A DNA stretch of 64,000 nt, taken from NCBI GenBank assembly GCA_027488845.1, contig JAIYBC010000046.1:62001-126000 (forward strand), written 5' to 3'. Source of the DNA: Verrucomicrobiales bacterium. Lineage in GTDB: Bacteria; Verrucomicrobiota; Verrucomicrobiia; Limisphaerales; UBA9464. Shown here piece by piece: positions 8,588-54,510 of the stretch. A model generated the notes under the pieces. It was given only the letters and a program-made list of their open reading frames with translations. It was not told the origin of the DNA and ran no database searches. Position numbers and translations under genes: made by a program. Within the stretch, counting starts at the first letter, position 1. Every line of letters starts with the position of its first letter.

Positions 8588-8588
8588 T

Positions 8589-8960: not shown

Positions 8961-8968
8961 CGAACGGT

Positions 8969-38529: not shown

Positions 38530-38604
38530 CGTCGAACCTGTCCCGGCACGGCTGGGAATCAAGGCCGTCGGTCGACGGGGTCGGACAAGGTCCGACGCCG
38601 AGGC

Positions 38605-39465
38605 CTACCGTATCGGGCGGGTGGACCGCTCCATCAGCCAGTACACGTCCTTGTTGTTGGCGGAGCCCACGTTCAGCGGGATCTCCGTCCCGCGACGCAG
38701 CACCGGGACCGTCCTCGGATCGAGCCACTTCTTGATCTCGGAATGGCCGTCCGCGAAGGACAGGCCGCCGGCCCGGCTGTGGTAGCCGGCGGGGTAGTCG
38801 ACGATCTTCCAGAGCTGCGGCTGGTCGGGCCAACCGGTCATGCCGACGATCATCTCGCCGTCGTTGATGCTGTCCTCGCGTTCATCTATGAAGGCCCAGG
38901 TCATGGACGGTCCCGGGTCGGTGAGGTCGGAACCCTTCTTGTAGATCCGGCAGTTCTGCCCGAAGCCCTGCACGTCCGTGGAATCGAACCACCCGTTCAT
39001 GGCCATGCTGCGCACGCGGGGCCGCTTGACGCCGGCGACGGTGACCGTGCTGAGGTCGGCCGGGCACTTGAAGATGGCCTTGGCCGCGCCGACGTATTTC
39101 CAGAGCAGGCCGTTGGTGAGGTCACGGTCGGAGTAGTTGCTGGTGTTGCCCGGATCGAAGTTCAACGAGCCGTGCACCCATTCGTTCGGACCGTAGGACT
39201 GCGGCAACCGGTCGGCGCTGTCGTCCACGTACAACTGCCAGCCGGTCATCAGCTGCTTGCCGTTGTTCATGCACTGGATGCCGACCGCCTTGGCCTTGGC
39301 CTTGCCCAGCGCCGGCAGGAGCATGCCGGCCAGGATGGCGATGATGGCGATGACCACCAGCAGTTCGATGAGAGTGAAACCGGACCGCTGGGCGCCTCGG
39401 TTGGCAACCGCAGACCTCGGGAGGCCTGTGGAAGGGTTCGTTGGACAGAGCGGAGAAAGCGTCAT
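38605..39465 (-). CDS. type II pseudopilin-like protein with H-x(n)-DG tail
   Basis: A 286-aa exported protein with the leader [20 protein letters not shown] and cleavage after Gly. The C-terminal region contains [14 protein letters not shown], the H-x(9)-DG(H) signature of verrucomicrobial/planctomycetal DUF1559-type pseudopilins. The start is the ATG at 39465, leaving a basic leader of ~28 residues. Unlike the two other pseudopilin genes here it is not followed by a small lipoprotein gene; next downstream, 75 nt away, is the photolyase-like operon. Function unknown. Confidence 0.88.
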
Positions 39466-39723
39466 GGGAATTGCGAGGTCGAATCGGCTGGGAACCGGCC
39501 CCTCGTCGACACCACAACTAGAGGGTCCACCCGACGGTGAACAGCAACGAACCGGAGACGAAATGCGGACGTCAGACCATGCCCCATGGGAGATCGGGGA
39601 AAACCGAGGAAAACCGGGCAAACCGAAGTCCCCTGCGGCGAGCCGTCCGAAAATCGATCGCAATTTGGAAAATGCCGTTGACGGTTAAAAGCGGGCCCCG
39701 CTAATTTCCGCGCCCCTGACGGA

Positions 39724-39795
39724 TCCAGAGTAGCTCAATGGTAGAGCAATCGGCTGTTAACCGATGGGTTGTAGGTTCGAGCCCTACCTCTGGAG
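39724..39795 (+). tRNA. tRNA-Asn (anticodon GTT), CCA encoded
   Basis: A complete cloverleaf: acceptor TCCAGAG/CTCTGGA (39724-39730 and 39788-39794), D-arm GCTC/GAGC, anticodon arm with loop CTGTTAA giving anticodon GTT, T-arm GTAGG-TTCGAGC-CCTAC, discriminator G39795, then encoded CCA at 39796-39798. The 3' half of the T-loop through the acceptor is duplicated at 53556, marking this gene as the attachment site of the following island. Confidence 0.97.
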
Positions 39796-39860
39796 CCATC
39801 TTCCCAGGCTCCCCCACCGTCCGGAATCCCTTCCCTCCTGAAAGGGCACCGTCGTGCCCG
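39778..39860 (+). repeat. left island end (attachment-site repeat at tRNA-Asn 3' end)
   Basis: Bases 39778-39811 are identical to 53556-53589 (34 nt), and 39812-39860 match 53590-53640 with a few changes and small gaps. The second part holds a hairpin, GGGCAC (39844-39849) with GTGCCC (39854-39859), probably the tRNA terminator. Direct repeats at a tRNA 3' end are the standard trace of tyrosine-recombinase integration. Confidence 0.88.
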
Positions 39861-40144
39861 GTGGGGCATCGGTTTCAACCCGTGACGGAGAACCGACCCA
39901 GATCCCGCCAGATCAATCGGATTTCACGATGCCAGTATGCTCAGAAGGGGCTTGGCATGGTGAGCGATCAGGCCCGAGCAGCCGACGGGTATCGACGAAG
40001 CAATGGAAAGTCAGAGATTTCGCGTCAGCCGTCCGCCTTCAGAACCAAAGCGAGCAGCGATCTGCATGCACCGAAGGACAGTCGACCACACTGCCATCCG
40101 AACAGCCCACCTCGACTGCAACCCGCTGAATCCCCCCACGAGGT
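39861..40144. other. island entry region, no gene seen
   Basis: About 280 nt between the attachment repeat and the methyltransferase pseudogene. No frame with a recognisable domain, no tandem repeats, and no recombinase remnant was found. Confidence 0.4.
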
Positions 40145-40597
40145 TCAGAATGAGACCAGGCGAAACTCAGGCGGACGAAACACGACCACCGCTAATGGAA
40201 ACGGAGCAGCGGTGACGCTGTTACCGAACCGAAGGCGGCCTCGGATCAGCCTGACCTCACCCCGCATCACGTACTCGTGCCACCACCGGGTGTCGGTGCG
40301 CGCCGGCAAGAGGCAGACGACGACAGCTCCTTGTCGGGAGGACTCGTAGGCCTTCTTTAGCCAGTCGCCGAAGGATCGACCATAGGGCGGGTTCATGAAG
40401 ACCGTCTGACGCCCCCAATCCTGTCGGAGCCCGTCGTCTTCCCGAGTGAAGAAGAGGGCTCACTTGGCGTTCTCCTTGGACGCACACGGATCCAAGGCGA
40501 ACGAGAATTCCGCTTGGAGGGCGTCGAAAAGCCACTGCGGCGTGGGCCAATCGTCAGTGGCGGAGGAGAAGAGAGGAGACCAATCGCGATTCGACAT
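40145..40597 (-). pseudogene. phage-type DNA N6-adenine methyltransferase, interrupted by one TGA
   Basis: One continuous frame from ATG 40597 to the stop at 40145 reads as a phage Dam-like methyltransferase (PF05869 type): SSATDDWPTPQWLFDAL, LDPCASKENAK, FFTREDDGLRQDWG, the catalytic FMNPPYGRSF, CLLPARTDTRWWHEYVM and GEVRLIRGRLRFG. Codon 46 (40462-40460) is TGA, where the family has Cys after NAK; the partial copy at 45.7 kb has TGC at that position. Length (about 150 codons) is otherwise full. The simplest reading is a recent nonsense mutation. It is divergent from the large STAND gene. Confidence 0.85.
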
Positions 40598-40717
40598 GCC
40601 TTGCAGCATCCCTTTTAGCGAAAGAAGCGCGTAAAGGAGCAACAGGAGAGGATCTCCTGAGCAATCGCGATTGGAAAAGTAAAGCCCCCCGGTTCCACTG
40701 GAAACAGCGAGGAACCG
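40461..40717. repeat. island direct repeat, copy A (methyltransferase 5' end plus upstream)
   Basis: Highly similar to 45659-45918 over its entire length. It spans the first 45 codons of the methyltransferase frame and ~120 nt upstream. Each copy holds two perfect palindromes AATCGCGATT about 80 nt apart (here 40582-40591 and 40663-40672), which may be operator sites for the divergent promoters. Confidence 0.85.
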
Positions 40718-40769
40718 TTGATATGCCACAGATGCGTCTTGTGCGACTGAACCCCGGGTTCGATCCTTA

Positions 40770-43700
40770 ATGAACGAGATCACGATCAACTGGAATTCGA
40801 TCCGTCCGCTCAACGGTGGCCGAGACAAAGGCTTCGAGGAACTCTGCTCGCAACTTGCTCGCGCGGAGACACCTGGCGGAGCACGTTTCGTTCGAAAGGG
40901 AACGCCGGATGCGGGTGTCGAGTGCTACGCGGTACTTGCTGACGGGACGGAATGGGGCTGGCAGTCGAAGTACTTCGATACCCTCGGTGACTCGCAGTGG
41001 CAACAGATTGACCACTCCATCGAGACCGCGATCGATAAGCACAAACACTTGGTTCGCTACTTCGTTTGCGTTCCGCTCGATCTACCTGATGCGCGCATCG
41101 AGGGCCGCAAATCCGCGAAGGACCGCTGGGATGAGCACGTAACGAAGTGGCGCGGCTGGGTGCAGGCGAAGAATCGAACCATCGAGTTTGTTTGGTGGGG
41201 CAGCAGCGAGTTGCTCGATCGCCTCGCTCGAATTGAGAACGTTGGACGAGTTCGCTTCTGGTTCGACAAGCGCGGCTTCGACGGATCGTGGTTCTCTTTG
41301 CGTCTCGAGGAAGCCATCAAAGCAGCCGGGCCACGGTACACGCCCGAACTTCACGTCGAGCTGCCGATCGCCGAAGATCTGGATGCGTTCGGGAGAACGA
41401 AGAGGTTTTTTGATCGCGTCAAAGCATTGGCCATCCCAGTAAGGGAGGCCCTTGAGAGGGCCCACCACTCAGAGCATTCTATCGCTGACGCCGAGACTGC
41501 GGCGATGACAAAGAGCCTCTCCGAGGCGGTAAAAATGGTATTGAACGCGCTCGGCGCGATTTCGCGGGTCGCCGCCGGACCACTTCCCTTCACGGGCGTC
41601 GTCGAGAAGATCAAAGCGACCAGTGCGCCCTTACAGGCGCTTGCTGCGCATCTAGAGAAGCGTGCAGCGGAACATGACGCGCGGAAGCCCACGTACGAGG
41701 CTGGCCATGGTCGATACCGTAGGAACCCGTTTCGAGAGCGCGGCTACACCCTACGACTCCTGGACCACGAGCTACGCGATGCGTCTGAGACTTTGCGCCG
41801 CGCCGACGAGTTGGCCGCAAGGAGTACACTTTTCCTGCACGGTAACGCAGGCACTGGCAAGACGCATCTCCTCTGTGACGTGGTAAAGCGACGCGTCGAG
41901 TTACACCAGCCGACTGTCCTGCTGATGGGGCAACGCTTCGTGAGCAACGATGCTCCGTGGCCCCAGGTGTTGCAGCACCTCGACCTCTCCGGTCTCTCCG
42001 CCGAGGAATTCATTGGCGCGCTAGAGGCATCAGCACAGGCGAGTGACGAGCGGGCGCTGATCTTCATCGACGCAATCAACGAGGGCACCGGACGCACAAT
42101 TTGGCCGACTCATTTGGCCGCATTCTTGGCTCAGGTTGGGCGGTCTCCATGGCTTGGCGTTGTTCTGTCGGTGCGCAGTTCGTACGAGGACGTGGTTATC
42201 CCGACGGAGGTGCGCGAGGAAGCCTTGTTCGTGACTCATCATGGTTTTCGCGAGAACGAGTACGACGCCACGAAGACATTCTTCGTTCACTATGGATTGG
42301 AGCTTCCATCGACTCCCCTCCTCGCGCCCGAGTTCCAGAACCCCCTATTCCTGAAAACGCTTTGCCTTGGCCTTCACAAGCAGGGCGACCGGCGATTGCC
42401 TCGCGGCTTCCACGGAATTTCGGCCGTGTTCAACTTGTACCTCGACACGGTCAACGCCCGACTGGCCCAACAATTAGGCTACGACCCGCGAACGCCGCTT
42501 GTGCGCCGCGCCGTTGATGCTTTCGCGGTAGCGCTAGCAGACGCCAACGAACGTTGGCTGCAGCGTGAACGGGCGGCCCAGGTCGTTGACACGCTTCTTC
42601 CGAACCGAGACTTCGAGCGTTCGCTTTCTCGCGGCCTCGTCCTTGAAGGCGTCCTTGCCGAAGATTCCCTTCTTCGCGACGGAACGAACCATCATGACGT
42701 CGTCTACATCGGGTATGAGCGCCTTGCCGATCACCTCATTGCGAAGGCCCTCCTCGACAAAGTGCCCGCGCCACCGAACTGGGCCACCGCCTTTTCCGCA
42801 AATGGCGTCCTTTCAGCTGTGGTTGCAGACGAAGACATCCCGCCCGGACTGCTTGAGGCCCTGTTCATTCAGGTCGCCGAACGAACCAAGACTGAACTAC
42901 TTTTGTTTGCCCCGCAGATGGCGTCGCGTTGGGGAACCGGTCACGCCTTTCGCCAGAGCCTCATTTGGCGGAGCAATAATGCCTTTTCCGAGGCCACGCA
43001 GAAGGTGCTCAACGATCTCTCCAGGAACGAACACGAATTGCACGAGACGCTGGATGTCTTGATCACCGTAGCGACCGTTCCGGATCACCCGCTTAACGCG
43101 ATCTATCTGGATCGGCGGCTGCGCAGAGATGAGATGGCAGATCGTGACGCGTGGTGGAGCACCTACCTGTTCAGCGCATGGGAGAGTCAAGGTGCGGTCG
43201 ATCGAATTGTCGACTGGGCATGGGCCGTTGGGGACACGGTTCTTATTGCCGACGACACGGTGGACCTCTGTGGCACTGCGCTCGCGTGGATGCTCACGAC
43301 CTCTCAACGCTTCCTACGCGATCGGGCGACAAAGGCGCTCGTCAATCTCTACACGGGTCGACTCGATGGCATGGTCCGCTTGGTCGATCGTTTCGCGGGT
43401 GTAAATGACCCGTACGTTGCCGAGCGTATCTACGGCATCGCGTATGGAGTCGCGATGCGCAGCCAGGATACCGCCGCCGTCGATGCCCTCGCCGCTTCCG
43501 TGTATCGCCACGTGTTCGAGTCGGGGAATCCGCCTCCGCAAGTCCTTTTGCGGGACTATGCTCGAGGCGTGGTGGAGCGCGCCCTTCATCTCGGCTCGAC
43601 GATCGCAATGGACGCGGCTCTCTTTCGCCCTCCGTACAAGAGCGAGTGGCCGTCCATCCCGTCTGAGGAGGACGTCAAGCCGCTGCTTCCGGATTGGTTG

Positions 43701-45443
43701 AAGGGCTCTCACGACAGCGGTGAGCTTGAGTGGAGTCGCAATGCCATCGGAAGGTCGGTAACGGAGTTCGGTGACTTCGCGCGCTACATCATTGGCACTA
43801 ACTCGTCAGCTGGGTCTCGTGCGTATCTTTCCCTCCGACTAGACGAGCCGACGTGGACGCCGCCTCCTAGTCCTGCAGCGCAGTTGGCTGCGCTTGTCGC
43901 CGACCTCTCCAACGATGAGCTGTCAGCATGGAAGGCTTTCGAGGTGGCGGACCGCTACTATGCGGCGGCCCACGACCAGTTCGTACGCAAAGCATTCGAT
44001 CGGCTAGAGGGGACCGACGGCCAAACTGTGATCGACCTGTCGAATCACGAGGCGCCCGAAGCCGAAACTGAGAAGGATTACCCGCCCGAGCATGCCTCTC
44101 TCAGGACGGCCAGAGACTCGGCCGAGATTAGGCTAAAAACGAGCCTTTCCGCGGAACACGCGGCTCGTTTGAACGCGATCAGAGACGCCAAGGAGAATCA
44201 TCACCCCGCCAGCCTACCACCCAGCTTCGATCTCCGCCAAGTGCAGCGCTACATCCTAAAGCGCGTCTTCGATCTTGGCTGGACGGTCGATCGATTCGGG
44301 CACTTTGATCGCATCATCGTGCGCAACGACGGACGCGAGGCGAACAAGCCCGAACGCATGGGCAAGAAGTACCAGTGGATCGCCTACCACGAGATGATGG
44401 CGTTCCTCTCAGATCATTTCCAGTATCGGGAAGAGTTCCTTGAGGATGGCCGCCATAGCTATAAAGGGCCGTGGCAGGAACACCTGCGCGACATTGATCC
44501 CTCATGCACTCTGCGCGCTCTTCCTGGCGGCACTTCTTGGGACGGGCACGCGGCCGCTTGGTGGTGTCCTGCCCCCTACGCCGCATGGGGAAATGGTGCG
44601 AGCCCAAATGACTGGATTGCGAGGGTCGACGACCTACCGCGGTTCGAGGACTTGCTCGTTTGTGTGAATCCTAAGGATGGGTCGCGCTGGTTGAACGGGC
44701 ACGGTTTCTTCAATTGGAAGGAAGCAGCGCCACCGGATCAACGCCCAACCGACGTGGCGCGGGGCGAACTTTGGTTCATCGCGAACGCCTACCTTATTCG
44801 AAAGTCGGACACGGACGCCTTCCTGAAATGGGCCGAGACGGTCGACTTTATGGGGCGTTGGATGCCAGACCCGCCTCGCGTCACTAGGATGTTTCTCGGT
44901 GAGCATGGTTGGGGGCCAGCATCTCGCTACTTCCAGAACGCCTACTATGGCGATGGAGGTTGGATCCAGCCTCCGCATAGGTGTCCCGTGCGGATTCGAC
45001 AAGTCGCCGTCGAGTATATCAAGGAGGCTAACGATTTCGACTGTTCGGTAGATGCCGGCTATACGCTTCTACTTCCCGCGGAGGAGGTGATGACAAGGCT
45101 CGGCCTTCATTGGACGGGTCGCGATGCCGAGTTTACCACGTTATCGGGTCGACTTGTGGCGCAGGATCCAACGGCGAGCTCTCCAGGGCCGAGCGTTCTG
45201 CTCCTTCGAGCAGACGCTTTACAGGATCTCCAGCATAGCGAAGAAATTACTCTTTGCTGGGCAGTCGTAGGCGAGAAGCAAGTCTTGAACGCGAGCGGCA
45301 CCCGACCACACACCCCGTCGCTACGACTGTCGGGCGCTTACGTTCTTGAGGGAGAAAAGCTGAGGGGTTTCGTGAAAAGGATGCTGGATGAGTATATGCC
45401 TGATGGACTACGACTCATCGACACCTATCGGAGCGAGCGGTGA
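40770..45443 (+). CDS. giant nuclease-STAND NTPase (Avs-like anti-phage protein)
   Basis: A 1557-aa protein. The N-terminal ~190 residues look like a PD-(D/E)xK nuclease of the Mrr/Cap4 kind: D47, E51 and QSK (Q65-K67) in GTPDAGVECY ... WGWQSKYF. A helical linker leads to a STAND/NACHT-type ATPase: Walker A FLHGNAGTGKTHLL (near 354-367) and Walker B ALIFIDAINEG (near 428-438). The remaining ~1000 residues are probably helical repeats acting as sensor, with a less repetitive C-terminal part. This order matches Avs-type defence proteins, in which phage-protein binding triggers tetramerisation and DNA degradation; the specific type is not assigned. The start is the ATG at 40770. GC is lower than outside the island. 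Confidence 0.88.
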   Translation: MNEITINWNSIRPLNGGRDKGFEELCSQLARAETPGGARFVRKGTPDAGVECYAVLADGTEWGWQSKYFDTLGDSQWQQIDHSIETAIDKHKHLVRYFVCVPLDLPDARIEGRKSAKDRWDEHVTKWRGWVQAKNRTIEFVWWGSSELLDRLARIENVGRVRFWFDKRGFDGSWFSLRLEEAIKAAGPRYTPELHVELPIAEDLDAFGRTKRFFDRVKALAIPVREALERAHHSEHSIADAETAAMTKSLSEAVKMVLNALGAISRVAAGPLPFTGVVEKIKATSAPLQALAAHLEKRAAEHDARKPTYEAGHGRYRRNPFRERGYTLRLLDHELRDASETLRRADELAARSTLFLHGNAGTGKTHLLCDVVKRRVELHQPTVLLMGQRFVSNDAPWPQVLQHLDLSGLSAEEFIGALEASAQASDERALIFIDAINEGTGRTIWPTHLAAFLAQVGRSPWLGVVLSVRSSYEDVVIPTEVREEALFVTHHGFRENEYDATKTFFVHYGLELPSTPLLAPEFQNPLFLKTLCLGLHKQGDRRLPRGFHGISAVFNLYLDTVNARLAQQLGYDPRTPLVRRAVDAFAVALADANERWLQRERAAQVVDTLLPNRDFERSLSRGLVLEGVLAEDSLLRDGTNHHDVVYIGYERLADHLIAKALLDKVPAPPNWATAFSANGVLSAVVADEDIPPGLLEALFIQVAERTKTELLLFAPQMASRWGTGHAFRQSLIWRSNNAFSEATQKVLNDLSRNEHELHETLDVLITVATVPDHPLNAIYLDRRLRRDEMADRDAWWSTYLFSAWESQGAVDRIVDWAWAVGDTVLIADDTVDLCGTALAWMLTTSQRFLRDRATKALVNLYTGRLDGMVRLVDRFAGVNDPYVAERIYGIAYGVAMRSQDTAAVDALAASVYRHVFESGNPPPQVLLRDYARGVVERALHLGSTIAMDAALFRPPYKSEWPSIPSEEDVKPLLPDWLKGSHDSGELEWSRNAIGRSVTEFGDFARYIIGTNSSAGSRAYLSLRLDEPTWTPPPSPAAQLAALVADLSNDELSAWKAFEVADRYYAAAHDQFVRKAFDRLEGTDGQTVIDLSNHEAPEAETEKDYPPEHASLRTARDSAEIRLKTSLSAEHAARLNAIRDAKENHHPASLPPSFDLRQVQRYILKRVFDLGWTVDRFGHFDRIIVRNDGREANKPERMGKKYQWIAYHEMMAFLSDHFQYREEFLEDGRHSYKGPWQEHLRDIDPSCTLRALPGGTSWDGHAAAWWCPAPYAAWGNGASPNDWIARVDDLPRFEDLLVCVNPKDGSRWLNGHGFFNWKEAAPPDQRPTDVARGELWFIANAYLIRKSDTDAFLKWAETVDFMGRWMPDPPRVTRMFLGEHGWGPASRYFQNAYYGDGGWIQPPHRCPVRIRQVAVEYIKEANDFDCSVDAGYTLLLPAEEVMTRLGLHWTGRDAEFTTLSGRLVAQDPTASSPGPSVLLLRADALQDLQHSEEITLCWAVVGEKQVLNASGTRPHTPSLRLSGAYVLEGEKLRGFVKRMLDEYMPDGLRLIDTYRSER

Positions 45444-45658
45444 AGTGCACTGCACCCATCCGAGTACTCATCGCCCAAGTCAAGCCAAAGAGCCATTTGA
45501 GTTGACGAGCCGACCAGCAACCGGTTGTTGCGGATGGGCCGCAAGCTTACCGCCGCTGAACCGAAACCATTCCTAGTCCACCAGTCGAAGCGATCATCCT
45601 ACCCAGGAAGTAGAGACTGAGACCCATGGGGGGGCGGCGTACGCATACGAAACCGGCG
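45444..45658. other. gap after STAND gene, no gene seen
   Basis: About 215 nt between the STAND stop and repeat copy B. In the minus-strand frame of copy B the methyltransferase sequence diverges right after NAKCAG, so only unrelated sequence remains here. Confidence 0.4.
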
Positions 45659-45918
45659 CACTTGGCGTTCTCGGCGTACGCGCATGAATCCAAGGCGAAC
45701 GAGAATTCAGCGTGGAGGGCGTCGAAAATCCGCTGCGGCGTGGGCCAGTCGTCGGTGGCGGAGGAGAAGGGAAGAGACTAATCGCGATTCGACATGCCTT
45801 GCAGCATCCCTTTGAGCGAATGAAGCGCGTAAAGGAGCAACACGAGAGGAGGTCCAGAGCAATCGCGATTGGAGAAGTGACTAGTCTTCCAGGCGCCACC
45901 GGAAACAGCGAGGAACCG
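45659..45918. repeat. island direct repeat, copy B (decayed methyltransferase 5' end)
   Basis: Second copy of 40461-40717. On the minus strand it reads MSNRD then TAG, followed in frame by FSSATDDWPTPQRIFDALHA and NAKC, so it is a fragment of the same methyltransferase gene with its own nonsense codon and no 3' part. Palindromes AATCGCGATT lie at 45780-45789 and 45861-45870. It is divergent from the Ntn-hydrolase gene, just as copy A is divergent from the STAND gene. Confidence 0.85.
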
Positions 45919-46133
45919 CTTTTGAACCCCAACAAAGAACCCAAAAGCCTCCCACGGATTGCTCCGAAGGAGGCCGCCACCTCGACCAGCCCACAAAAAC
46001 ATTCGCCAATTTGAAACCAATGCTTTTGTGGACCGTTTGGGAGTTGCGGCATACAACCCTGCCGAGTAAGATGCCGCAACTGAGATGAGGATCCAGGGAA
46101 AGTCGATCCGAGTCAACGTCTTTTCGAATTCTT

Positions 46134-46997
46134 ATGTCGTCATTAGTCGCATGGATTGGGGTAGACCAACGCGGCCCATCTTCAGCGTATATTGCAACAG
46201 ACAGTCGAATATCGTGGTCATCCGGCGATAAAATATCAGCCAAATGGGACCATGGTCGAAAAGTATTTGGCGGAAGACATTCCCCGGAACTCTTCGGATA
46301 CGTTGGCGATGTTCTCTCCCAGTCAATGATTCTCGGACAAATTTCAGATCTGCCGACTTCCAACAGCCAATCAATCACTTTTGAATCCATCGACCAGCGA
46401 TTTGAAGATGTAGGCAAACTGATTGAAAGCTCAATCAAACCATTATCCACCCCACACACAGGCGACGCTAAAATTATTCATGTAATTAGAATTGCAGAAG
46501 GAATGGAAACACGATTCGCATGCCAGTCAATTGAATGGATGAAGAACAAATGGATTCGCACAAGAGTCAATATCCCAACCTCCTCTGAGATTATTGTTGC
46601 ATGCGGTTCTGGTGCCGAACACGTTTTGAGCTGGAAAATGCGATGGAATAGCTCAATGGGTCACCCAACCAGCCGAGCTATCTTTAGCGCATTCTGCGAC
46701 TCCATTGAGGCTGACTCCGATAAGTTTTCCGGTGGATTTCCACAGCTTTACTCCCTACACAGAAAGGGCGGCGCAAGGCCGATAGGAGTGTTCTACAATG
46801 GACAATCCAGCATATTGGGATTAAATATTTCTGAAGGCATATTACCCTCACTTGATTTGGATTGGCGAAACCCGCTCTTCGAAAGATGTGATCGACTGGG
46901 CAATCTACTGAAAGGCACCCAAAGACATTCCAAACCAATGGAGCTAAGGAATTCAGGTCAAGCTTCCGAACCGAGCAGACCGTTTTTCGAGTCTTAG
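46134..46997 (+). CDS. proteasome-fold (Ntn-hydrolase-like) protein
   Basis: A 287-aa protein. The N-terminus, MSSLVAWIGVDQRG then AYIATDSRISW and later KVFGGRHSPELFGYVGDVLSQSMILGQ, follows the proteasome beta/HslV pattern: two beta-strands after a small N-terminal nucleophile (Ser2 or Ser3 after Met removal), the D-SR strand end, a K/RK strand and the GDV/GxxxD helix start. Length fits one Ntn subunit with a ~60-aa tail. No ATPase unfoldase gene is adjacent, unlike HslVU. The composition is clearly AT-rich. It lies in a defence island between two nuclease-NTPase genes, so a role in anti-phage action is a reasonable guess. The start is the ATG at 46134. Confidence 0.75.
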   Translation: MSSLVAWIGVDQRGPSSAYIATDSRISWSSGDKISAKWDHGRKVFGGRHSPELFGYVGDVLSQSMILGQISDLPTSNSQSITFESIDQRFEDVGKLIESSIKPLSTPHTGDAKIIHVIRIAEGMETRFACQSIEWMKNKWIRTRVNIPTSSEIIVACGSGAEHVLSWKMRWNSSMGHPTSRAIFSAFCDSIEADSDKFSGGFPQLYSLHRKGGARPIGVFYNGQSSILGLNISEGILPSLDLDWRNPLFERCDRLGNLLKGTQRHSKPMELRNSGQASEPSRPFFES

Positions 46998-47219
46998 GAG
47001 CCCTTCGATGATATTGGCTGCGCGCGAGCGAACTTCCATGGCGTGTAGAGCAGCGAGCCGAACCTAGTTCTACTTTGTTATGAACAGTGTGGACAAGGCT
47101 TTGAGCGTTGAGCTAGAAGACTTGAGTGTCTGGCGGACATAGAAACGCCAACACGAGATTCGAAGAAGCAACTTCTGCAAGGCGCGGACAACACCGCGCC
47201 AAATAAAAATGCCCTCCAA

Positions 47220-47402
47220 TCGTTCCGAGGGATCGGCCGACGCCTGACCCAGTTCATGTCCGGGTACTCGGATTACTTCGTGGTTCGCGGCAATGACGTG
47301 GGCAAATCGGCCCGTGACTACATGTCTGGGCTCCTGGGCACGGCCCTGAGGCAAGCCAGATCCTATACAACGTTTGTTTCAGACGGCGGAAGGATTACGT
47401 GT
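47220..47402 (+). pseudogene. possible transposase remnant (IS701-like)
   Basis: A plus-strand frame reads LQSFRGIGRRLTQFMSGY, then SDYFVVRGNDVGKSARDYMSGLLGTALRQARSYTTFVSDGG. The order F..F, a DYxxGLL motif and a following basic helix with a final FVS resembles the N-terminus of IS701-family transposases. No further part of a transposase, no DDE region and no terminal inverted repeats were seen. Assignment is weak. Confidence 0.3.
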
Positions 47403-48018
47403 CAAGCGGAACTTCGTCCCACGCTTCCTTGCTCAACGACCAGTCCAAAGCTCGCCGCCGTTCAATGACAACGTAAGGCCTCAGGTTTCCTGGCGGACGT
47501 TTGCCGGCGAGTTCTGATTGCCGGATTGCCCAATGAAGGCAGTACGCCAGGTCACAAGTTGCGACAACTCGCTCTTGGGCGCGCGGATTCGCCTTCTTGC
47601 GGAAGTCGGCGCTGCTCTGGTTCTGTTTCAGATTAGGAAGCATCATCACGAAGCGGCTGTCGCAGTCCTTGGCGAAGTCCAGTTCGTTGGCAATTCCCAT
47701 CGCCCAAGCAAGCGCCCACATTCCTTCTACTTGCACCTTGAAGCGGTCAGGGTGTCCCGTGGATTCAAAGATAAAACACCTCTCTTTCTCGCTGAGGGAG
47801 TCGGTCAAATCTTCTTGATTCAACCAAGCGATAGCCTTTGCTTTGTCGAATCCGTAAGCAGTCGCCGCAACAGCATTCATCACCAAGATTCGCGTAATTG
47901 CCTTATCGGCGCTTCGCATTTCAAGTCCAGTGTCCAGCAGCGGCAGCGACGCTGACACGTCCACCCCAAGCCGTTTCGCCGCTTGGATTGATTGGTCGCG
48001 GATTAGTTTAAGGTCCAT
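47395..48018 (-). CDS. DUF4272 domain protein
   Basis: A 207-aa protein with the DUF4272 pattern: repeated helices beginning RSADKAITRILVMNAVAATAYG, LTDSLSEKERCFIFES, the WALAWAMGIANELDF segment and the C-terminal TCDLAYCLHWAIRQSEL and VVIERRRALDWSL ending. The start is the ATG at 48018 before DLKLIRDQSIQAAKRLGV. DUF4272 proteins are scattered among bacteria, often on mobile DNA, with no known function. It is on the same strand as the large NTPase gene upstream but separated by a hairpin. Confidence 0.85.
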   Translation of the reverse strand: MDLKLIRDQSIQAAKRLGVDVSASLPLLDTGLEMRSADKAITRILVMNAVAATAYGFDKAKAIAWLNQEDLTDSLSEKERCFIFESTGHPDRFKVQVEGMWALAWAMGIANELDFAKDCDSRFVMMLPNLKQNQSSADFRKKANPRAQERVVATCDLAYCLHWAIRQSELAGKRPPGNLRPYVVIERRRALDWSLSKEAWDEVPLDT

Positions 48019-48126
48019 AGTTTGCTCCAAACCCTCCGATGGTTCCGGGCAATCGATGCAAGATCGGCTGTAGTGCCTGCGCGCGGTGCTCACTTCTCGC
48101 CGATCCATCTGACGTGTCCCTTGTGG

Positions 48127-48143
48127 CGCCCCCCTAGGGGGCG
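48127..48143 (-). terminator. hairpin downstream of the second nuclease-NTPase gene
   Basis: CGCCCCC (48127-48133) pairs perfectly with GGGGGCG (48137-48143) over a 3-nt loop, 9 nt past the stop of the gene at 48152-52108 on the minus strand. No T-run follows, so its strength is uncertain. Confidence 0.5.
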
Positions 48144-48151
48144 TAGGAGAT

Positions 48152-51100
48152 TCAAAGGTCGTCTACGTTCGCTGGGAACATGTTCCGATTCATCTCCGCA
48201 TCTCGAATTTCATAGCGAACAATAGCATTGTAGAATGGTTCCAAAATGACGTCACCTGCGAAACAATGCGCTAGCCTTTCAGCTTCTTCTCGAATATATC
48301 TATATTGAGGGTCAAGCTGGTTGTTCGAGTAGCTTCTCCCAGCCCCACATGCGGAGTGCAAAAGCACATGAAACAATTCTGTATGAACCCCAAGAGCGTG
48401 AGAGCGAGTTAGAATCTCCCTCACTAGATCATGATATTGAAATACAAACCGCGAACCACTTGTGGCAGGAATCTTGGCTGCAAGAACAAGTTCCGAGCCA
48501 GTGAAGCACTGAGACACAATGCCTCCGATTCGGATAGTCCGTGTTTTGGAATCAGAATCGATCAGGGCCCTGACCAGCGCAAGGTAGGCATCGGAATACT
48601 GTCCGGCGTTGGTTGCATTTTTCCATTGCACAGCAATCTCCTGATCGAGAAATGATGGATCACCAAAATCCCCCACGCCAGGAAGCGTTCCGGAACCGAG
48701 TCGGAAGAGTACATTGGAATCACTCGACGCCGATGACTGAGTCAAATCCCGGAATAGATTATAGGTTTGCCTCGGGTAAAGCTTTGCTATTTTATCAAGA
48801 CTATTTTCAACTTCCGCGGTTAAAGAAAGGCAAAAGGCCCCAACATTTTTAAGCGACTTTTCAATCAAATCCCAATTCAGCCGACCCATGTGATTCTTGC
48901 AAAACTGCTCTAATGACAGAATGACCTCTTTAGCCCCTTTCTCTGTCTCCGGGACTAGGCGGCTGAGCAACTCCAAGCCCCAGCTTGACTCACTAACCAG
49001 GTAGTGTCCTAGCACCCATGCAACGGTACAAAGAACATCCTCTTCGTCTCGATCAGCGCAAAGATCCATTGATGTGCGATCCACCGCGCTAAGTCCGCCA
49101 CCATGAAATCCTTTCAATCCGAGATGTTTGATCAGCGAACACACCTGTCCAATTCGTCCTACTTCAGGCAATCGATAGAGGACTTGTGTGTAGATGTCCG
49201 AAGCCGCTTGACTGACCGGCCCAAGAACGGCCCCAAGATCGTAGTCGAAGTCGGTTGCTTCGCTGGAGCATAGTTCACGCAAGAGCGCTTCCCCCCAAGC
49301 GTGCGACTTCAACGCAAGAAGGTTCAACGCTACGTCTGGCTGAACTGAGAGTCCGGCTTGCCGAAGTACTTTATTTTCCTGTCGCAAGAAACTCAGGAAA
49401 GCGTTAGCAGTTGTAAAGCGAGCGGCCGCGTCTTCGACTACTTCGCGGCAAAACTTTCTCCAAACCTGTTCGCAATTCTTATAATCATCTAGCCCAATAT
49501 CAGAACGCCCATCTTGAATTTCATCATGGGCTGCAGATGCAATTACCCTCGCAAACCTGAGTTCAAAAGTGTCAGGAATACTCGAGAGCACTTTCGCGCA
49601 GGCATCGACGAACGCGGAGTCTTTGTCATATTTTATAATATCACGGAGCTGCTGCCGAATCACGAACTGGATGGTGTGTGAGCTTTGGTTGGCTAGAATT
49701 GTTGTTTTGAGTGCATCAAGCGCTTCAAGCCGCGCGGGGCGCCACTCGTCCCAGTTTGCTTGTCCGGCTTCTAGGCGATAACGAGGGAAAAACCGTTCGA
49801 TCCCTGCTCTTAAGACACGCAGGGCCGGAATCACCAATTGAAGGTCGCCAGAGTAGGCGAATTGTTTGGCAATAGTCAGGGCCCTGTCTCGAAACGGTTT
49901 AGTTCGTTCAGCCGAAAGCGGAATTGATTGGAAATGAACGGTTTTTCCGGTATGCCAACTGCGCTCGGCGACGCGGGCGAAATACGAATCAAGGAGTGCT
50001 GGTAGAAGCCACGGTTCCTTCCTAAGCCGGTTGATCGAGCTTTCATTGGAAAGTTCCTTTTCCAACCAGGCAATCACTGAACTTGGACCGTGATGTGGCT
50101 CAACCGAGAACTTTGCGACACTTGAGATTATCCCAATTGGCGAATGGTCCAAACTGTGGTTGGGATGCGGTTGCTTCGAATCAAGCTGCCACAGGAGGTC
50201 CAACGCATTGCGAGCTAGATTGGGGTGCCACATGACGATCGGCTTCATCATCGAAGGCAAGGAATCCAACATTGCTTTTCGATGGCCCAAGTATTTGGAT
50301 TCTTCGGCGGCAGAGCTTGGATCCAGCGTTGATCTCAAAGCAAGCTCTGCAAGTTCAAGCGTTCTTTCGGGCTGAAATACGCCGAATGCGCTCCATTCGT
50401 TTATTAACTCTCGTCTACCCCACCAAGTTGAGGATTGGAACCGACAGATGAACTCCGACCAGACTGGATCGAAGAAGGAGTTTTTGGCTTTGCGCTTTGA
50501 ACGGCTCTCCCAATCGGCTTGGGCGAGATTGCGGAGAAGCGCTGGGAAATCTTTGCCCGGCAGTTTGGCTATAATTGAGCTGAGAAGCGGTGAAGTACGC
50601 CCATTTCCATCGAGGCAGAAATTAAGAGCAACGGCATCGGCGAAGAGGTCGGGATACAACCGAATTCCTTCGGCGTTTTCCGCTAGAAGGCCAGAAGCCA
50701 GAAGTAAATCCATGTCCTCCGCTACATCGAGCGCAGAGCATTCAACGATTTCGCCAGCTTTCTGGAGTAGCTCGTTAGTTCGAGGTGTCGGGGAGATCAG
50801 TGCAATAAAGCGGATTAGACGTCGAAGTCTATCCCGTTTTACTTCCGCTTGAAGGCGAAGAAACTCATCCTGAAACCCTTTAAAGACCAGTTCACGAAAG
50901 GTCTCTTCGTTCGTCATCGCCTCGGGAATGGATCCAGAGTTGATGAGTGCTCCACCCAAAACCACTAGAAGGGGACAGCGATCAGCTAGAGCAGCCAATC
51001 GCGGGACGTGAAGTTGCTTGGAACTGTTGAGAACATTATGAGCTAATGACTCGATTTCGCCTCTACTCCAACGGGGAAGCTCAAGAGGTTTCAGAATACG

Positions 51101-52108
51101 TTCTGCGTATCCATTTTGAAAGAGCTGACTATTGACTGCTTCACGAGCTTGTGGACGAGTAGCCACCAGTAATCGGATGCTTTTCGATTTAGAGGCTGCT
51201 GACGCAACTTGTCCTAATACTTGATCTAGTCGATGAGCATCTTCAACCACCAGGACGAGATCGCTTTCGCGGCCCAGTAGATCGATTGTCTCCGCTTCGA
51301 TCTGTCTTCCGCCAACTTGCAGAAATCGCACGCGGGGCATCCCAGCCGCTGAATCCAGCCTCTTCGCGAGCTCTAGTAGAAGTCGGCTTTTCCCCTGTCC
51401 GCCGCTGGAGGACAAGATCAGAGCTTTCCCCGCTTCGTCTTTCGCGAAAGCTTCGAGCAACGAAAGCGTTTCCCCTGAGACAAAGGCTGTCTTGTGGTGA
51501 AACAGCCTCCGATCGTCTGCTAAGTCATGGGCATAGAATTCCTTCCAACTGAGCAGAATATTCGGTCCCCAGGGAAAGAGCCGTCTGACCCACTCAGTCC
51601 CAAACTGCTCAAATGACTGAACAAGCTTCATTCCGTTTTCTACCGGAAGAAGTTTTTGAACTTCGGTTGTCAGGCGAGATGCGTCCCACCACATCCACCG
51701 ACTACGAGAATGAATCTCGATCTGTGCTTTGTCGGATAGGCTACAGGTAGTCACTAGCACGTACTGCCGAATGTCTGGTCGATCTTTTTCGGCACGATTA
51801 ATTGTTTCACGGACCTTGGCCGGACTGAAAGACTTCACCTTTTTGCATTGTACAAGCCACACTTCATTTGACTCCAACTCTACCTGAATATCTCCGCCAC
51901 GTTGATCTGTCCCGCCCCCAAGTCTTGAAGCGCTAATAACACGTAGTTCGGAAACTTTGCCTTCACGTTGGCAGATTATCTTCGGGTGATAGTTGAGCCA
52001 ATCGGTGCAGAACTGCTCGAAAGCACTGTAATCCAGTTTCCAGAAGGGAAGTGCGGATGCCTCAGATCCGGTTGGCTGTGCATTTGTGCCACGCATTTTA
52101 GATCTCAT
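48152..52108 (-). CDS. second nuclease-NTPase, probable defence protein
   Basis: A 1318-aa protein. The N-terminal ~150 residues carry an Mrr-like restriction endonuclease fold: YSAFEQFCTDWLNYHPK, then RGGDIQVELESNEVWLVQCKK with D73, Q88 and K90 as the D-QxK catalytic set. A P-loop NTPase follows: Walker A SSSGGQGKSRLLLE (233-246) and Walker B DLVLVVEDAHRL (283-294), with a sensor-like RLLVATRP at the next strand. The other ~900 residues are predicted helical repeats. The layout parallels the STAND protein at 40770 but the sequences are not closely similar. The start is the ATG at 52108, inside the 3' remnant of the AbiEii-like gene. AT-rich for this genome. Confidence 0.85.
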   Translation of the reverse strand: MRSKMRGTNAQPTGSEASALPFWKLDYSAFEQFCTDWLNYHPKIICQREGKVSELRVISASRLGGGTDQRGGDIQVELESNEVWLVQCKKVKSFSPAKVRETINRAEKDRPDIRQYVLVTTCSLSDKAQIEIHSRSRWMWWDASRLTTEVQKLLPVENGMKLVQSFEQFGTEWVRRLFPWGPNILLSWKEFYAHDLADDRRLFHHKTAFVSGETLSLLEAFAKDEAGKALILSSSGGQGKSRLLLELAKRLDSAAGMPRVRFLQVGGRQIEAETIDLLGRESDLVLVVEDAHRLDQVLGQVASAASKSKSIRLLVATRPQAREAVNSQLFQNGYAERILKPLELPRWSRGEIESLAHNVLNSSKQLHVPRLAALADRCPLLVVLGGALINSGSIPEAMTNEETFRELVFKGFQDEFLRLQAEVKRDRLRRLIRFIALISPTPRTNELLQKAGEIVECSALDVAEDMDLLLASGLLAENAEGIRLYPDLFADAVALNFCLDGNGRTSPLLSSIIAKLPGKDFPALLRNLAQADWESRSKRKAKNSFFDPVWSEFICRFQSSTWWGRRELINEWSAFGVFQPERTLELAELALRSTLDPSSAAEESKYLGHRKAMLDSLPSMMKPIVMWHPNLARNALDLLWQLDSKQPHPNHSLDHSPIGIISSVAKFSVEPHHGPSSVIAWLEKELSNESSINRLRKEPWLLPALLDSYFARVAERSWHTGKTVHFQSIPLSAERTKPFRDRALTIAKQFAYSGDLQLVIPALRVLRAGIERFFPRYRLEAGQANWDEWRPARLEALDALKTTILANQSSHTIQFVIRQQLRDIIKYDKDSAFVDACAKVLSSIPDTFELRFARVIASAAHDEIQDGRSDIGLDDYKNCEQVWRKFCREVVEDAAARFTTANAFLSFLRQENKVLRQAGLSVQPDVALNLLALKSHAWGEALLRELCSSEATDFDYDLGAVLGPVSQAASDIYTQVLYRLPEVGRIGQVCSLIKHLGLKGFHGGGLSAVDRTSMDLCADRDEEDVLCTVAWVLGHYLVSESSWGLELLSRLVPETEKGAKEVILSLEQFCKNHMGRLNWDLIEKSLKNVGAFCLSLTAEVENSLDKIAKLYPRQTYNLFRDLTQSSASSDSNVLFRLGSGTLPGVGDFGDPSFLDQEIAVQWKNATNAGQYSDAYLALVRALIDSDSKTRTIRIGGIVSQCFTGSELVLAAKIPATSGSRFVFQYHDLVREILTRSHALGVHTELFHVLLHSACGAGRSYSNNQLDPQYRYIREEAERLAHCFAGDVILEPFYNAIVRYEIRDAEMNRNMFPANVDDL

Positions 52109-52515
52109 GGAGTCATTGGGTTGAAACTTCCTTTTGAGCCTTGGGCTGAAACCAATTTGCCGACACGAAGTTGGGACGACCGAAGAGTCGGGGCAGGCTG
52201 AGAACCTGTTCGAAGTCGCTGTGGAGATCCAAGGACCTCGGGCTCGTTCGGTCCGCCGAAGCCGAGGAAGGCCCGGTCGATGGAAACGTCGATGTCCTCG
52301 GAGAATCGCTGGATGACCTTGAACACCTTCGAAAGCGATGTCCCGCCCTTGAAGACCAGGTGCTCTCCGATCTGCGGCAGGCGGAACAGCTCCTGCAACG
52401 TCCAGCACACCCAGAAATCCTTCTCGACGACGATGGAATCGATGCCGGTCTGCCGCGCCGTCTCGGAAAAGAGTTCCGAGCGCTGCCGTGGCCCGAGTTG
52501 GAGCACTTCATTCAT
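52105..52515 (-). pseudogene. AbiEii-like nucleotidyltransferase toxin, 3' truncated
   Basis: The first ~90 residues are a normal AbiEii/MNT-like toxin N-terminus: EKDFWVCWTLQELF, the motif LVFKGGTSLSKVF and FSEDIDVSIDRAFLGFGG. The family usually runs to about 300 residues, but here homology stops after GGPNEPE and the remaining ~45 residues are unrelated, ending at the start of the large NTPase gene. Most of the catalytic C-terminal half is missing, so activity is unlikely. The start is the ATG at 52515, overlapping the antitoxin gene by 8 nt, the usual AbiE operon order. Confidence 0.85.
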
Positions 52516-53116
52516 GTCCGTCCTGTGAGATCTTCTGTGCCAGCGGTTTCATCCAAGCGGGCACCCCGGGCGTGAGCGCCGCCAGATCCTTCTTCGTTCC
52601 CGGGTCCAAGTCGCGGCGAAGCCGGGCAACGTGCCTTTCCATTTCGGTGCTCCCCTTCAGATGACGCAGCGCCTGGATCACCAATCCGGCGCGTCGGCCA
52701 GCGCCCAGCAGGTTGCGGGGTGCGGCCCGACGAAAGACCAGCGTCAGTTTGCCCAGAGGCACCTTCCGGGCGAGTCCGTCGGTCAGGATGATGATCTTCG
52801 CCGGAACCTGGTCCGACAATCCCAGCGCGTTCGCGGCGTAGGCTCCCGTGAACTGCCACTGGGCATGGCTGCCTTCCATCAACGCCCGCACCGTCGCCAC
52901 GATGTCCGGTCCCGTCTGGCCGAGGATCGGATGCGGACGCGGCAGGTGGTAAAGCCCGCGCCGGACCCGCTGGAGCTTTCCGACCTTCACCAACCGGTGC
53001 AAGGCCACCCCCACCGCCGACCGACTCCCCAAGTCGAGGAACTGCTTCGGCAAGAACACGCCCCCGGGCTCGCCTCGGCGAATGCGGCTCAAGATGCTCT
53101 TTTCAATGGGCTGCAC
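52508..53116 (-). CDS. AbiEi/DUF6088-family antitoxin
   Basis: A 202-aa transcriptional antitoxin of the AbiEi-like DUF6088 group. The N-terminal winged helix is SILSRIRRGEPGGVFLPKQFLDLGSRSAVGVALHRLVKVGKLQRVRRGLYHLP; the middle has AYAANALGLSDQVPAKIIILTDG, and the C-terminal KDLAALTPGVPAWMKPLAQKI is typical. The start is GTG at 53116. An inverted repeat 20 nt upstream is a likely binding site for autorepression. It remains intact although its toxin partner is truncated. Confidence 0.9.
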   Translation of the reverse strand: MQPIEKSILSRIRRGEPGGVFLPKQFLDLGSRSAVGVALHRLVKVGKLQRVRRGLYHLPRPHPILGQTGPDIVATVRALMEGSHAQWQFTGAYAANALGLSDQVPAKIIILTDGLARKVPLGKLTLVFRRAAPRNLLGAGRRAGLVIQALRHLKGSTEMERHVARLRRDLDPGTKKDLAALTPGVPAWMKPLAQKISQDGHE

Positions 53117-53136
53117 GGCAATGAGTCACTCGATTC

Positions 53137-53166
53137 TGTAACAAATACTCGCCTGTTTTTGTTACA
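53137..53166. promoter_or_regulatory. predicted AbiEi operator (inverted repeat)
   Basis: TGTAACAAA (53137-53145) and TTTGTTACA (53158-53166) form a perfect 9-bp inverted repeat with a 12-nt spacer, immediately upstream of the antitoxin start. AbiEi-type antitoxins are known to bind inverted repeats in their own promoters. Confidence 0.7.
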
Positions 53167-53555
53167 AGATTCCTGCCGCAACCGCAAGCCCTTCATCCGG
53201 GGTTTGTTCGGCTTCAGCCGACGATGACTCCCGGCGGCTCGCTGTCACTGGACCGCTCCGCGAGAACTGCCGGTTCCTCGCTGATTCCAAGGGAACCTGG
53301 TAGGGGCTTGACGGGTGCGGGGTGACGGCGGGCGATGCCACCTGAGACGCTCGGACACCTGTTCGGACTGGCAAAGAGGTGGCGCCTGATGGACGCACAG
53401 TCCGCAAATCGAGAAACTGACACCAAAACTGACACCAACCGAGCAAGGGCTGGGAAACCGGAGTTCACGCGGGTTATGCGGATTAGATTTGCAGGGCGGA
53501 CGATGGGATCGGAGTATACGCAAGTCGTTAACGATACCAGCAGGTCAAGCCTGAC

Positions 53556-53640
53556 CGAGCCCTACCTCTGGAGCCATCTTCCCAGGCTCTCCCCTAACGT
53601 CCGGAATCCCTTCCCTCCTGAGCGGGTACCGTCGTGCCCG
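53556..53640 (+). repeat. right island end (partial tRNA-Asn 3' copy)
   Basis: Bases 53556-53589 repeat the last 21 nt of the tRNA-Asn gene with CCA and the next 13 nt exactly; 53590-53640 continue to match 39812-39860 imperfectly, including the GGGTAC/GTGCCC hairpin. The tRNA 5' part is absent, so this is the reconstituted attachment site and not a second tRNA. Confidence 0.88.
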
Positions 53641-54510
53641 AAGCCGGCCCTGAGCCACATTGGGAACGCCGGAACCTCCCATCCCCGACGGCAGAGGCCC
53701 GCTTCCGTCCCCTTCCCCAAACTCCGCGTCTCCGCGTCTCCGCGTGACCCTTCCGGCGTCGCCCTGGTAGGCCGTCTCCCCCGAGCCGGCCCTCCTTGGG
53801 GCACGGAGCAGCTACGGGAGTCCGGAGGCATGGAGTCCCGGCTTCAGCCGGCGAACACCAACCCAATCCGGCGACGCTGGTCCACCGCCGGACCGCAGAG
53901 GGTGGTTGCCGTTTCCGATGGGTCCCTCGATGAATCTTGGGCGTCTGAGATGCAATGCAGGTCCACCTGTAGGAATGCCGTTCAACGAACTGCCGAAGGC
54001 GTCGACCCCATCGAACCAGACCAAGGGTTTCCCTCGATCTCCCACCACTTCCATATCTGTGTCCCTCTGCGAGATCTGTGGATGAAACTCCCAAACTCCG
54101 AATCCACAGACGCTTGCATCCGCAGATTTCACAGATCGGCGCAGATGGAATTCAGGAAATCGACCTCGGACGTGTCCCCATTGCGGGCGTAATGCCCGGA
54201 AATGCCGCATTTCTCCTGGATGCAGAAATCGGATCGGGTGAGTGGAGACGAACCCGCCAGGATCCGGCGTTGGCCACTTGATGCAAACGGCGACTTCTCG
54301 AATCCAGCGGTTCCGACTCCCTGCGTGCCCTCTTCCACGGAGGGATCCGCACCCACTGATTGCTGCGGCGAATACACAGCCTCGCGCTCGGTCTCGGCCG
54401 GATCGCGGCTGCCATCCTGCCGTCCACGTCGCGGTGCCGAGCGGTGGCGTCCCACCCGCAGCCGAATATTTGTTTGAACCCGACGGCCTCGGCCGCTATG
54501 CCGCCCCACG
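53641..54510. other. long gap without a gene
   Basis: About 870 nt right of the island. It contains GTCTCCGCGTCTCCGCG-type short repeats near 53730 and repeated CACAGAT/CGCAGAT words near 54070-54150, similar to other intergenic repeats of this genome. No coding frame was recognised. The efflux operon promoter should lie at its right end. Confidence 0.4.

Follow-up and report, generated by a model that had tools for sequence, protein, structure and literature searches.

In E. coli, the mapping of defence hotspots places 18 of them in tRNA loci (PMC10121019). The locus described in this study lies in a 64-kb stretch of DNA (hereafter the window) from an uncultured Verrucomicrobiota-type genus. 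It shares with the E. coli hotspots the grouping of defence genes at a tRNA gene and the occurrence of different cargo at one site, but differs in its Verrucomicrobiota-type host, in having no recombinase left and in the damage to its internal modules. The island at tRNA-Asn proposed in a preliminary description of this DNA is real: 13,778 bp of lower-GC DNA lie between an intact tRNA-Asn and a repeat of the tRNA 3' end. The features of the locus, in order, are as follows.

39724..39798, plus strand: intact tRNA-Asn (GTT), detected by ARAGORN; its 3' end forms the left repeat copy
39778..39860, plus strand: left copy of an imperfect repeat of about 85 bp (tRNA 3' end and terminator-like hairpin)
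40145..40574, minus strand: Dam-type phage DNA N6-adenine methyltransferase, copy A, a pseudogene with an in-frame stop
40457..40717, minus strand: repeated block, copy A, with an ISL3-type insertion-sequence end (outer terminus 40716) and the 5' part of Dam
40770..45443, plus strand: Avs2 (AVAST type 2 STAND nuclease), 1557 aa, full length
45655..45918, minus strand: repeated block, copy B, with the same insertion-sequence end (outer terminus 45917) and a 5' fragment of Dam
46134..46997, plus strand: 287-aa protein, no family assigned
47395..48108, minus strand: DUF4272 protein, 237 aa (PF14094, 133.3 bits)
48152..52108, minus strand: putative Mrr-type nuclease, STAND NTPase and helical repeat, 1318 aa, of predicted Avs4-like architecture (hereafter Mrr-STAND)
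52238..52515, minus strand: AbiEii toxin gene, truncated, 5' part of about 90 residues (PADLOC AbiEii, 126 bits, residues 1-90)
52508..53116, minus strand: AbiEi antitoxin (DUF6088), 202 aa, complete (PADLOC AbiEi, 189.1 bits over residues 4-199; PF19570, 113 bits)
53272..53400, plus strand: left-end remnant of an ISL3-family insertion sequence
53556..53640, plus strand: right repeat copy, matching the tRNA-Asn 3' end
53641..53893, strand not assigned: right flank adjoining the repeat, in gapped alignment to the DNA directly behind tRNA-Asn of the empty-site genome G013

The two repeat copies match over a first part of 38 nt (39778-39815 and 53556-53593, 97%, the first 34 identical) and a second part of 52 nt (39809-39860 and 53589-53640, 90%), with a start-to-start spacing of 13,778-13,780. 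The 25-nt core of the repeat was found in only two places in the 64 kb at up to 3 mismatches, the mean for 100 shuffles being 0.00, and each copy includes the hairpin located 3' of the tRNA, at -13.4 and -11.5 kcal/mol with z near -2 for both. The whole island is contained in one 148,699-base contig (C26) of a 69-contig draft genome.

Among relatives, the same site was detected in other states. In G013, a genome of the same genus, one contig carries tRNA-Asn together with both flanks and lacks the island, the left flank with tRNA-Asn being 96.4% identical over 2,751 columns and the right flank 96.4% over 5,100; this is the empty locus predicted in the preliminary description, and the one case of an orthologous empty site. 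At the point that corresponds to 53893-53900, G013 has about 1.9 kb of its own DNA, mainly one gene for a 513-aa repeat-rich protein. In G005, the same tRNA is followed by a PF00589 tyrosine recombinase and conjugation-type genes including a TrwB/TraG-type coupling protein. In G012, of which the tRNA itself lies off the contigs examined, a 26-nt copy of the repeat at the matching right end adjoins an integrase-like open frame. With a recombinase in G005 and an integrase-like fragment in G012 at this position, the tRNA-Asn site is used repeatedly.

The compositional break expected for imported DNA in the preliminary description is also present. The GC content of the flanks averages 0.678 (n=46 two-kb windows), while that of the island, in windows of the same size, falls to 0.58-0.60 over the stretch 40-46 kb and to 0.50-0.52 in the part from 45 to 52 kb, and the tetranucleotide deviation reaches z of 5.4. 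With the repeat, the empty site and this break, the island belongs to a known kind, the tRNA-integrated defence island; it has no integrase of its own, which is needed for autonomy but not for island status. The composition varies by module, with GC3 of 0.68 for Avs2, 0.44 for the 287-aa gene, 0.62 for DUF4272, 0.48 for Mrr-STAND and 0.80-0.85 for AbiE, the flanking genes showing 0.82-0.88, and therefore accretion is favoured over the single integrated element assumed at the outset. The repeated 0.26-kb block around Avs2, the insertion-sequence end and the truncated AbiEii likewise favour stepwise assembly, and the island looks like a patchwork, apparently built in several steps. Apart from its large immune-receptor-like gene it is mostly ordinary, being such a patchwork at a site that mobile DNA also uses in relatives.

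Both of the large genes labelled nuclease-NTPase at first are present and can now be named more precisely, that at 40770-45443 as full-length Avs2 and that at 48152-52108 as a STAND NTPase with a putative Mrr-type nuclease. Avs2 matched the PADLOC model with 1617.8 bits over residues 4-1536, the NCBIfam model NF041813 with 1381.2 bits (curated cut-off 1000) and PDB 9o4e with an E value of 3e-189; the match to the described Avs2 is thus full-length and well over the curated cut-off. The methyltransferase pseudogene was correctly recognized, but there are two methyltransferase fragments rather than one, flanking Avs2. Copy A matches Pfam PF05869 in two pieces (34.3 and 28.4 bits) and also phrog_111; block copy B is 89% and 87% identical to copy A, and the Dam reading frame is incomplete in both, copy A being split by a stop and copy B retaining only the 5' part. 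A search for the Dam block in 59 relatives and the genome itself matched, besides both island copies, a single further place in the same genome, as well as G013 (74% over 119 nt) and G008 (27 nt).

The insertion-sequence remnant at 53272..53400 is 78-79% identical to five other places in the genome, each at a contig end. The end sequence is shared with a copy in G013 (L101) that carries a DDE_Tnp_ISL3 gene (168.8 bits); unlike this ISL3-family element, the island keeps the ends only. The right-hand end was missing from the initial gene list.

AbiE, described as a type IV toxin-antitoxin system, is represented by a complete AbiEi and the start of AbiEii. Of the pair reported earlier, the antitoxin stands, but the AbiEii nucleotidyltransferase is truncated at 52237, and because of this cut AbiE is not a working pair. 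The DNA homology of AbiEii to four relatives ends at 52236-52238, and longer AbiEii frames exist elsewhere, as a 340-aa gene in G004 and as stop-to-stop frames of 341-351 aa in three relatives. The AbiE DNA is 87% identical to that of a same-genus genome.

The label of Ntn-hydrolase, given at first to the 287-aa protein, received no support from any search. The protein matched nothing in Pfam, PADLOC, NCBIfam or PHROG, and PDB sequence searches, together with Pfam on five homologues, did not support an Ntn-hydrolase. Comparison with proteasome-type proteins from genomes of the phylum by hhalign gave E values of 0.05 to 0.5 (probability <1%), and a single-sequence model had a low pLDDT of 32.4. 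By eye, the protein starts with M-S/T-S/T, followed by SDSR and RKVF, a start that might be compatible with the N-terminal nucleophile, Asp and Lys of a proteasome-type protein. Homologues exist on plasmids, their neighbours on three plasmids being mutually dissimilar in a search for partner genes, and a scan of the genome contigs with a two-sequence alignment detected no relative.

The most interesting part of the island is Mrr-STAND, a large immune-receptor-like gene of a little-known family. Its protein matches nSTAND_NTPase5 with 27.1 bits and Mrr_cat with 17.7 bits (cut-off 21), both below the Pfam cut-offs, and an invariant G-x6-D and QCK residues are found across five aligned sequences. 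The predicted structure covers residues 130-1318 (pLDDT 79.0), the putative N-terminal nuclease part lying outside the model. Foldseek with this model ranked Avs4 (8dgf) first (E 2.1e-8, TM 0.17/0.14, rmsd 26.4) and Avs5 third, matches that indicate shape only, as other solenoid proteins reach E 1e-5. VIA-align gave Z 14.7 for Avs5 and Z 12.4 for Avs4 over 505 residues (rmsd 23.1), in a list of mostly AAA+ and NLR NTPase domains from which the absence of other families is uninformative. The model thus predicts a STAND NTPase followed by a long helical sensor, as in Avs4. With Avs4 and Avs5 (PDB 9jap) the protein shares the STAND NTPase, the long helical repeat and putative Mrr-type nuclease motifs. 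In contrast to them, it matched no NCBIfam model at E 0.05 and no PADLOC Avs model, PADLOC giving only PDC-M58A (17.3 bits), and its relatives usually neighbour an AAA_14-DUF4143 gene.

This divergently transcribed gene, for an AAA_14-DUF4143 ATPase, stands beside Mrr-STAND relatives in 9 of the 12 loci tested, as a raw count; for 2 of these 9 partners the domains were confirmed with profiles, for the others by tblastn. The count leaves out three of 15 loci, L136-L138, which gave short matches, and also L072 and L073, because their STAND proteins start like those of L132 and L127 and equal them in length. The copy in the window has no such neighbour, and in the tree of Mrr-STAND proteins it sits on a long branch (1.94), its placement having failed. 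A literature search on DUF4143, STAND and defense found no paper. We tentatively propose, as a possibility short of an even chance, that Mrr-STAND belongs to a mostly Verrucomicrobiota immune-receptor family, Avs4-like in build but not in sequence and normally encoded with the divergently transcribed AAA_14-DUF4143 gene as a two-gene system; the copy in the window would be a partnerless offshoot that came in at the cost of the end of AbiEii and now either functions by itself or, lacking its partner, is inactive.

Taken together, the locus is very probably a genomic island adjoining the tRNA-Asn 3' end, with cargo exchanged stepwise and a likely role in anti-phage defence, a reading to which the empty site in G013 and the compositional break lend support. 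The tRNA-Asn 3' end would have been used more than once in the genus by recombinase-bearing elements. A founding element, which we infer only, as no recombinase is recognized inside, may have brought or created the second tRNA 3' end before its recombinase was lost. The cargo would then have changed in steps: an AbiE pair resembling the host in composition; a low-GC segment, carrying the STAND nuclease, in place of the 3' part of AbiEii; Avs2, set between duplicate Dam fragments that begin with an insertion-sequence end; and insertion-sequence debris. Avs2, and by its architecture Mrr-STAND, would bind a phage protein via the C-terminal repeats, assemble via the NTPase and then cleave DNA, so that phage production ends at the expense of the cell.

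We consider it unlikely that all genes came as cargo in a single integration event, the mosaic being already on the element. One pair of end repeats does enclose everything, and a third copy between the modules, expected under tandem integration, was not found across the 64-kb window; against this stand the Dam/insertion-sequence blocks round Avs2, the truncated AbiEii and the internal insertion-sequence ends, even though these could predate arrival, and AbiE is unlike its neighbours in its host-like GC3 and its identity to same-genus DNA. The right end bears on another reading, that the block came by homologous recombination from a related species with the island at its own tRNA-Asn; the right repeat and the adjoining DNA would then be foreign, and no recombinase would have acted in this lineage. 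The left repeat copy differs from the empty site of G013 by 5 mismatches in 87 columns, the right copy by 8 mismatches and a 2-nt gap in 85; the repeat extends past the tRNA and its left copy is the closer one to G013, contrary to the simplest integration model. Furthermore, 53556-53893 is 71.7% identical to G013 over 343 columns, gapped, as against 96.4% from 53900 on, and the island holds no recombinase. The proposal that the tRNA end came from another host fits the greater divergence of the right copy and of the adjacent 250 bp (about 72%), but the right side would look the same if an unused copy and non-coding DNA had simply drifted. Any foreign flank must be short and one-sided, because on the left the 96% identity to G013 continues as far as the repeat. 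We regard such a transfer as unlikely; it is compatible with stepwise assembly in the donor.

As to present mobility, the early statement that no integrase lies inside the island was borne out. The eight PF00589 matches in the genome are all off the contig holding the window, tblastn of ten recombinases (one a fragment) against the island gave nothing better than E 0.032, and reading the gaps in six frames revealed no integrase remnants. A 'TDTKTDTN' stretch at 53416, considered as the tail of a lost integrase, gained no support from a scan of the retrieved loci. Literature searches on Verrucomicrobi, tRNA-Asn and integrase, and on integrase-less islands, found no paper. The eight recombinases encoded elsewhere could in principle excise the island in trans, one of them sharing 71.6% identity over 67 aa with the fragment next to the repeat in G012. 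On the other hand, two resemble the G005 enzyme at 45-48% identity, one of the two being located close to tRNA-Cys, so that in this genome the family may target other tRNAs, and the repeat copies diverge outside the core; that the island is still mobile in this way is very improbable.

The pattern of tRNA hotspots mapped in E. coli (PMC10121019) now extends to an uncultured Verrucomicrobiota-type genus, in which the same site is seen empty, differently occupied and defence-bearing. The cut toxin gene, the absent recombinase and the insertion-sequence ends inside illustrate how an island decays and is rebuilt. As a candidate immune system, the Mrr-STAND family and the ATPase gene often found next to it are open to direct testing.

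The lower-GC island of 13.8 kb lies between an intact tRNA-Asn and a repeat of the 3' end of that tRNA gene. The features assigned were as follows.

39724-39798, tRNA-Asn (GTT), intact; ARAGORN
40770-45443, Avs2; PADLOC 1617.8 bits over residues 4-1536, NCBIfam NF041813 1381.2 bits (cut-off 1000)
47395-48108, DUF4272 protein; Pfam
48152-52108 (-), Mrr-STAND gene (1318 aa); Mrr_cat and nSTAND5 signals, both under the Pfam cut-offs
52238-52515, AbiEii, start of the gene only; Pfam and PADLOC
52508-53116, AbiEi, complete; Pfam and PADLOC

The 3' end of tRNA-Asn recurs at 53556, as 38 nt at 97% identity, with no mismatch in the first 34, and then 52 nt at 90%, the two copies being 13,778-13,780 nt apart and both retaining the hairpin downstream of the tRNA. 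With up to 3 mismatches the 25-nt repeat core occurs just twice in the window (mean in shuffled sequences 0.00, n=100). The compositional break and the empty-site relative expected in the preliminary description were both found. Flank GC averages 0.678, against 0.58-0.60 at 40-46 kb and 0.50-0.52 at 45-52 kb, and the tetranucleotide z reaches 5.4. In G013, a genome of the same genus, a single contig carries tRNA-Asn and both flanks (window 37113-39860 and 53900-58998, 96.4% each) without the island. Defence islands at tRNA genes are already well known, 18 E. coli defence hotspots being described as tRNA loci in PMC10121019, and the present island belongs among them. Since it has no recombinase of its own, self-excision is unlikely.

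Immediately past its tRNA-Asn, G013 has DNA that can be aligned with the two repeat copies and, further on, with the right flank of the window; for window 53556-53893, similarity across the 343 columns is only 71.7%. G013 also has some 1.9 kb of extra DNA between its counterparts of 53893 and 53900, mainly a gene for a repeat-rich protein of 513 aa (L054:5222-6763) that lies between tRNA-Asn and the right flank and is absent from the window. Simple integration would put the native repeat copy on the right. Compared with G013, the left copy shows 5 mismatches in 87 columns and the right copy 8 mismatches plus a 2-nt gap in 85 columns. Either the right copy, with some of the DNA beyond it, has an outside source, as proposed in the preliminary description, or both have drifted.

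Other genomes of the genus show the site in different states, and tRNA-Asn sites were resolved in at least 10 of 18 (G005, G012 and G013 included). G005 resembles the window at 91% through the left flank and the tRNA as far as 39803; past that point the sequence differs, and next comes a tyrosine recombinase gene (PF00589 at 28.9 bits against a cut-off of 27.1; phrog_1 at E 6.9e-18), beyond which ParA-type and TrwB/TraG-type proteins are encoded. On the G012 contig with the right flank (94%), 26 nt of the tRNA end recur at 587-612, and an open frame to their left includes 67 aa with 71.6% identity to one of the recombinases encoded in the genome of the window; a Pfam search of this frame found no domain. 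The left-flank contig of G012 stops at window 39357, short of the tRNA. Seven further tRNA-Asn loci (G001, G004, G006, G010, G014, G015 and G017) were read for 0.6-11 kb past the tRNA, and frames of at least 130 aa were listed for up to 6 kb; by eye, no recombinase was seen among them. The same gene begins about 60 bp past the tRNA in six loci; G015 is the exception, with an open frame that continues on from the tRNA. The surroundings of these seven have no match to the window beyond the tRNA, and the loci are therefore evidence on tRNA-Asn, not on the locus of the window. Left of the tRNA, a prepilin-type N-methylation segment (about 39250-39380) makes up the majority of the matches listed for the region in 22 relatives, so that other matches of the region are hidden.

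Near other tRNA genes of the window's genome (tRNA-Cys, tRNA-Val and tRNA-Thr/tRNA-Gly) tyrosine recombinases were observed at L061 (C25), L063 (C5) and L065 (C61), and more tRNA-integrated elements are therefore likely in this genome. A second low-GC stretch lies at 7001-9000 of the window (GC 0.52, tetranucleotide z 4.7), with a 446-aa frame at 7247-8587 (-). A tRNA-Arg called by ARAGORN at 4707-4799 is antisense within a 939-aa frame (2184-5003) and could be spurious.

Avs2 also matches PDB 9o4e (E 3e-189). Avs1-Avs4 are described in PMC12931631 as recognising phage packaging proteins and then cleaving phage and host DNA, and as a family member the island's Avs2 may act likewise. On either side of it (40457-40717 and 45655-45918) stands a copy of a duplicated block, with 89% identity between copies over 224 nt and 87% over a further 30 nt; each copy has an insertion-sequence end first and then the start of a Dam-type methyltransferase gene. 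A third insertion-sequence end, 53272-53400, is 78-79% identical to five genome places, every one at a contig end, and the G013 copy of the insertion sequence encodes DDE_Tnp_ISL3 (168.8 bits). GC3 is 0.677 for Avs2, 0.438 for a 287-aa gene (46134-46997), 0.618 for DUF4272, 0.484 for the STAND gene and 0.80-0.85 for AbiE, the genes flanking the island having 0.82-0.88. The duplicated blocks, the insertion-sequence ends, this spread and the closeness of the AbiE stretch to G004 (below) are signs that the island was probably assembled in steps.

The 287-aa product matched no profile in Pfam, PADLOC, NCBIfam or PHROG. Its homologues are in five plasmid records (29-33% identity; at least 80% query coverage in four), and a search of 386 other genomes of the phylum at E 1e-5 gave none. 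Over the AbiE stretch, identity to G004 is 87%; the match of the DNA to four relatives ends at 52236-52238, within AbiEii, whose frames in three of them are 341-351 aa from stop to stop (340 aa from ATG in G004). The AbiE pair proposed earlier thus reduces to a complete AbiEi and the 5' start of AbiEii, and its action here as a toxin-antitoxin pair is unlikely.

At E 1e-20 the Mrr-STAND protein has matches in 3 of the 387 genomes searched in the phylum, its own included. Fifteen loci came from a scan of genome contigs, and 11 lie in Verrucomicrobia, Verrucomicrobiaceae, Opitutia, Opitutaceae, Opitutus or Akkermansia records. The STAND protein of G350, listed in the same class, agrees in start and length with that of L132, a Verrucomicrobia record, which suggests a Verrucomicrobiota-type host. 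Nuclease-like and NTPase motifs are conserved across five aligned sequences, the window's among them. A divergent AAA_14-DUF4143-type gene lies within about 120 bp upstream at 9 of 12 loci tested, a raw count of loci not all independent, since L124-L126 are close relatives. It is absent at L128, L130 and L134, in both plasmid relatives tested and in the island. Profile search of two of the nine partner genes gave AAA_14 and DUF4143, and PADLOC PDC-S01, a candidate defence gene. At L128 a convergent AbiEii gene (12473-13120; PF08843, 93.3 bits) adjoins the Mrr-STAND relative, by chance or as a second association.

The structure model of residues 130-1318 (pLDDT 79.0, pTM 0.61) matched Avs4 (8dgf) best in Foldseek, at E 2.1e-8 with low TM-scores (0.17, 0.14) and an rmsd of 26.4, followed by the helical-repeat protein CAND1 (E 1.1e-5) and Avs5 (E 2.4e-5). 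VIA-align placed Avs5 at the top (Z 14.7, rmsd 23.6), closely followed by NLR and Clp NTPase domains, with Avs4 at rank 35 (Z 12.4 over 505 residues). The predicted fold is evidence for a STAND-like NTPase and hints at Avs4. From its build, we infer that the Mrr-STAND protein may recognise a phage packaging protein and then cleave DNA, and its family is the component of the island that merits follow-up.
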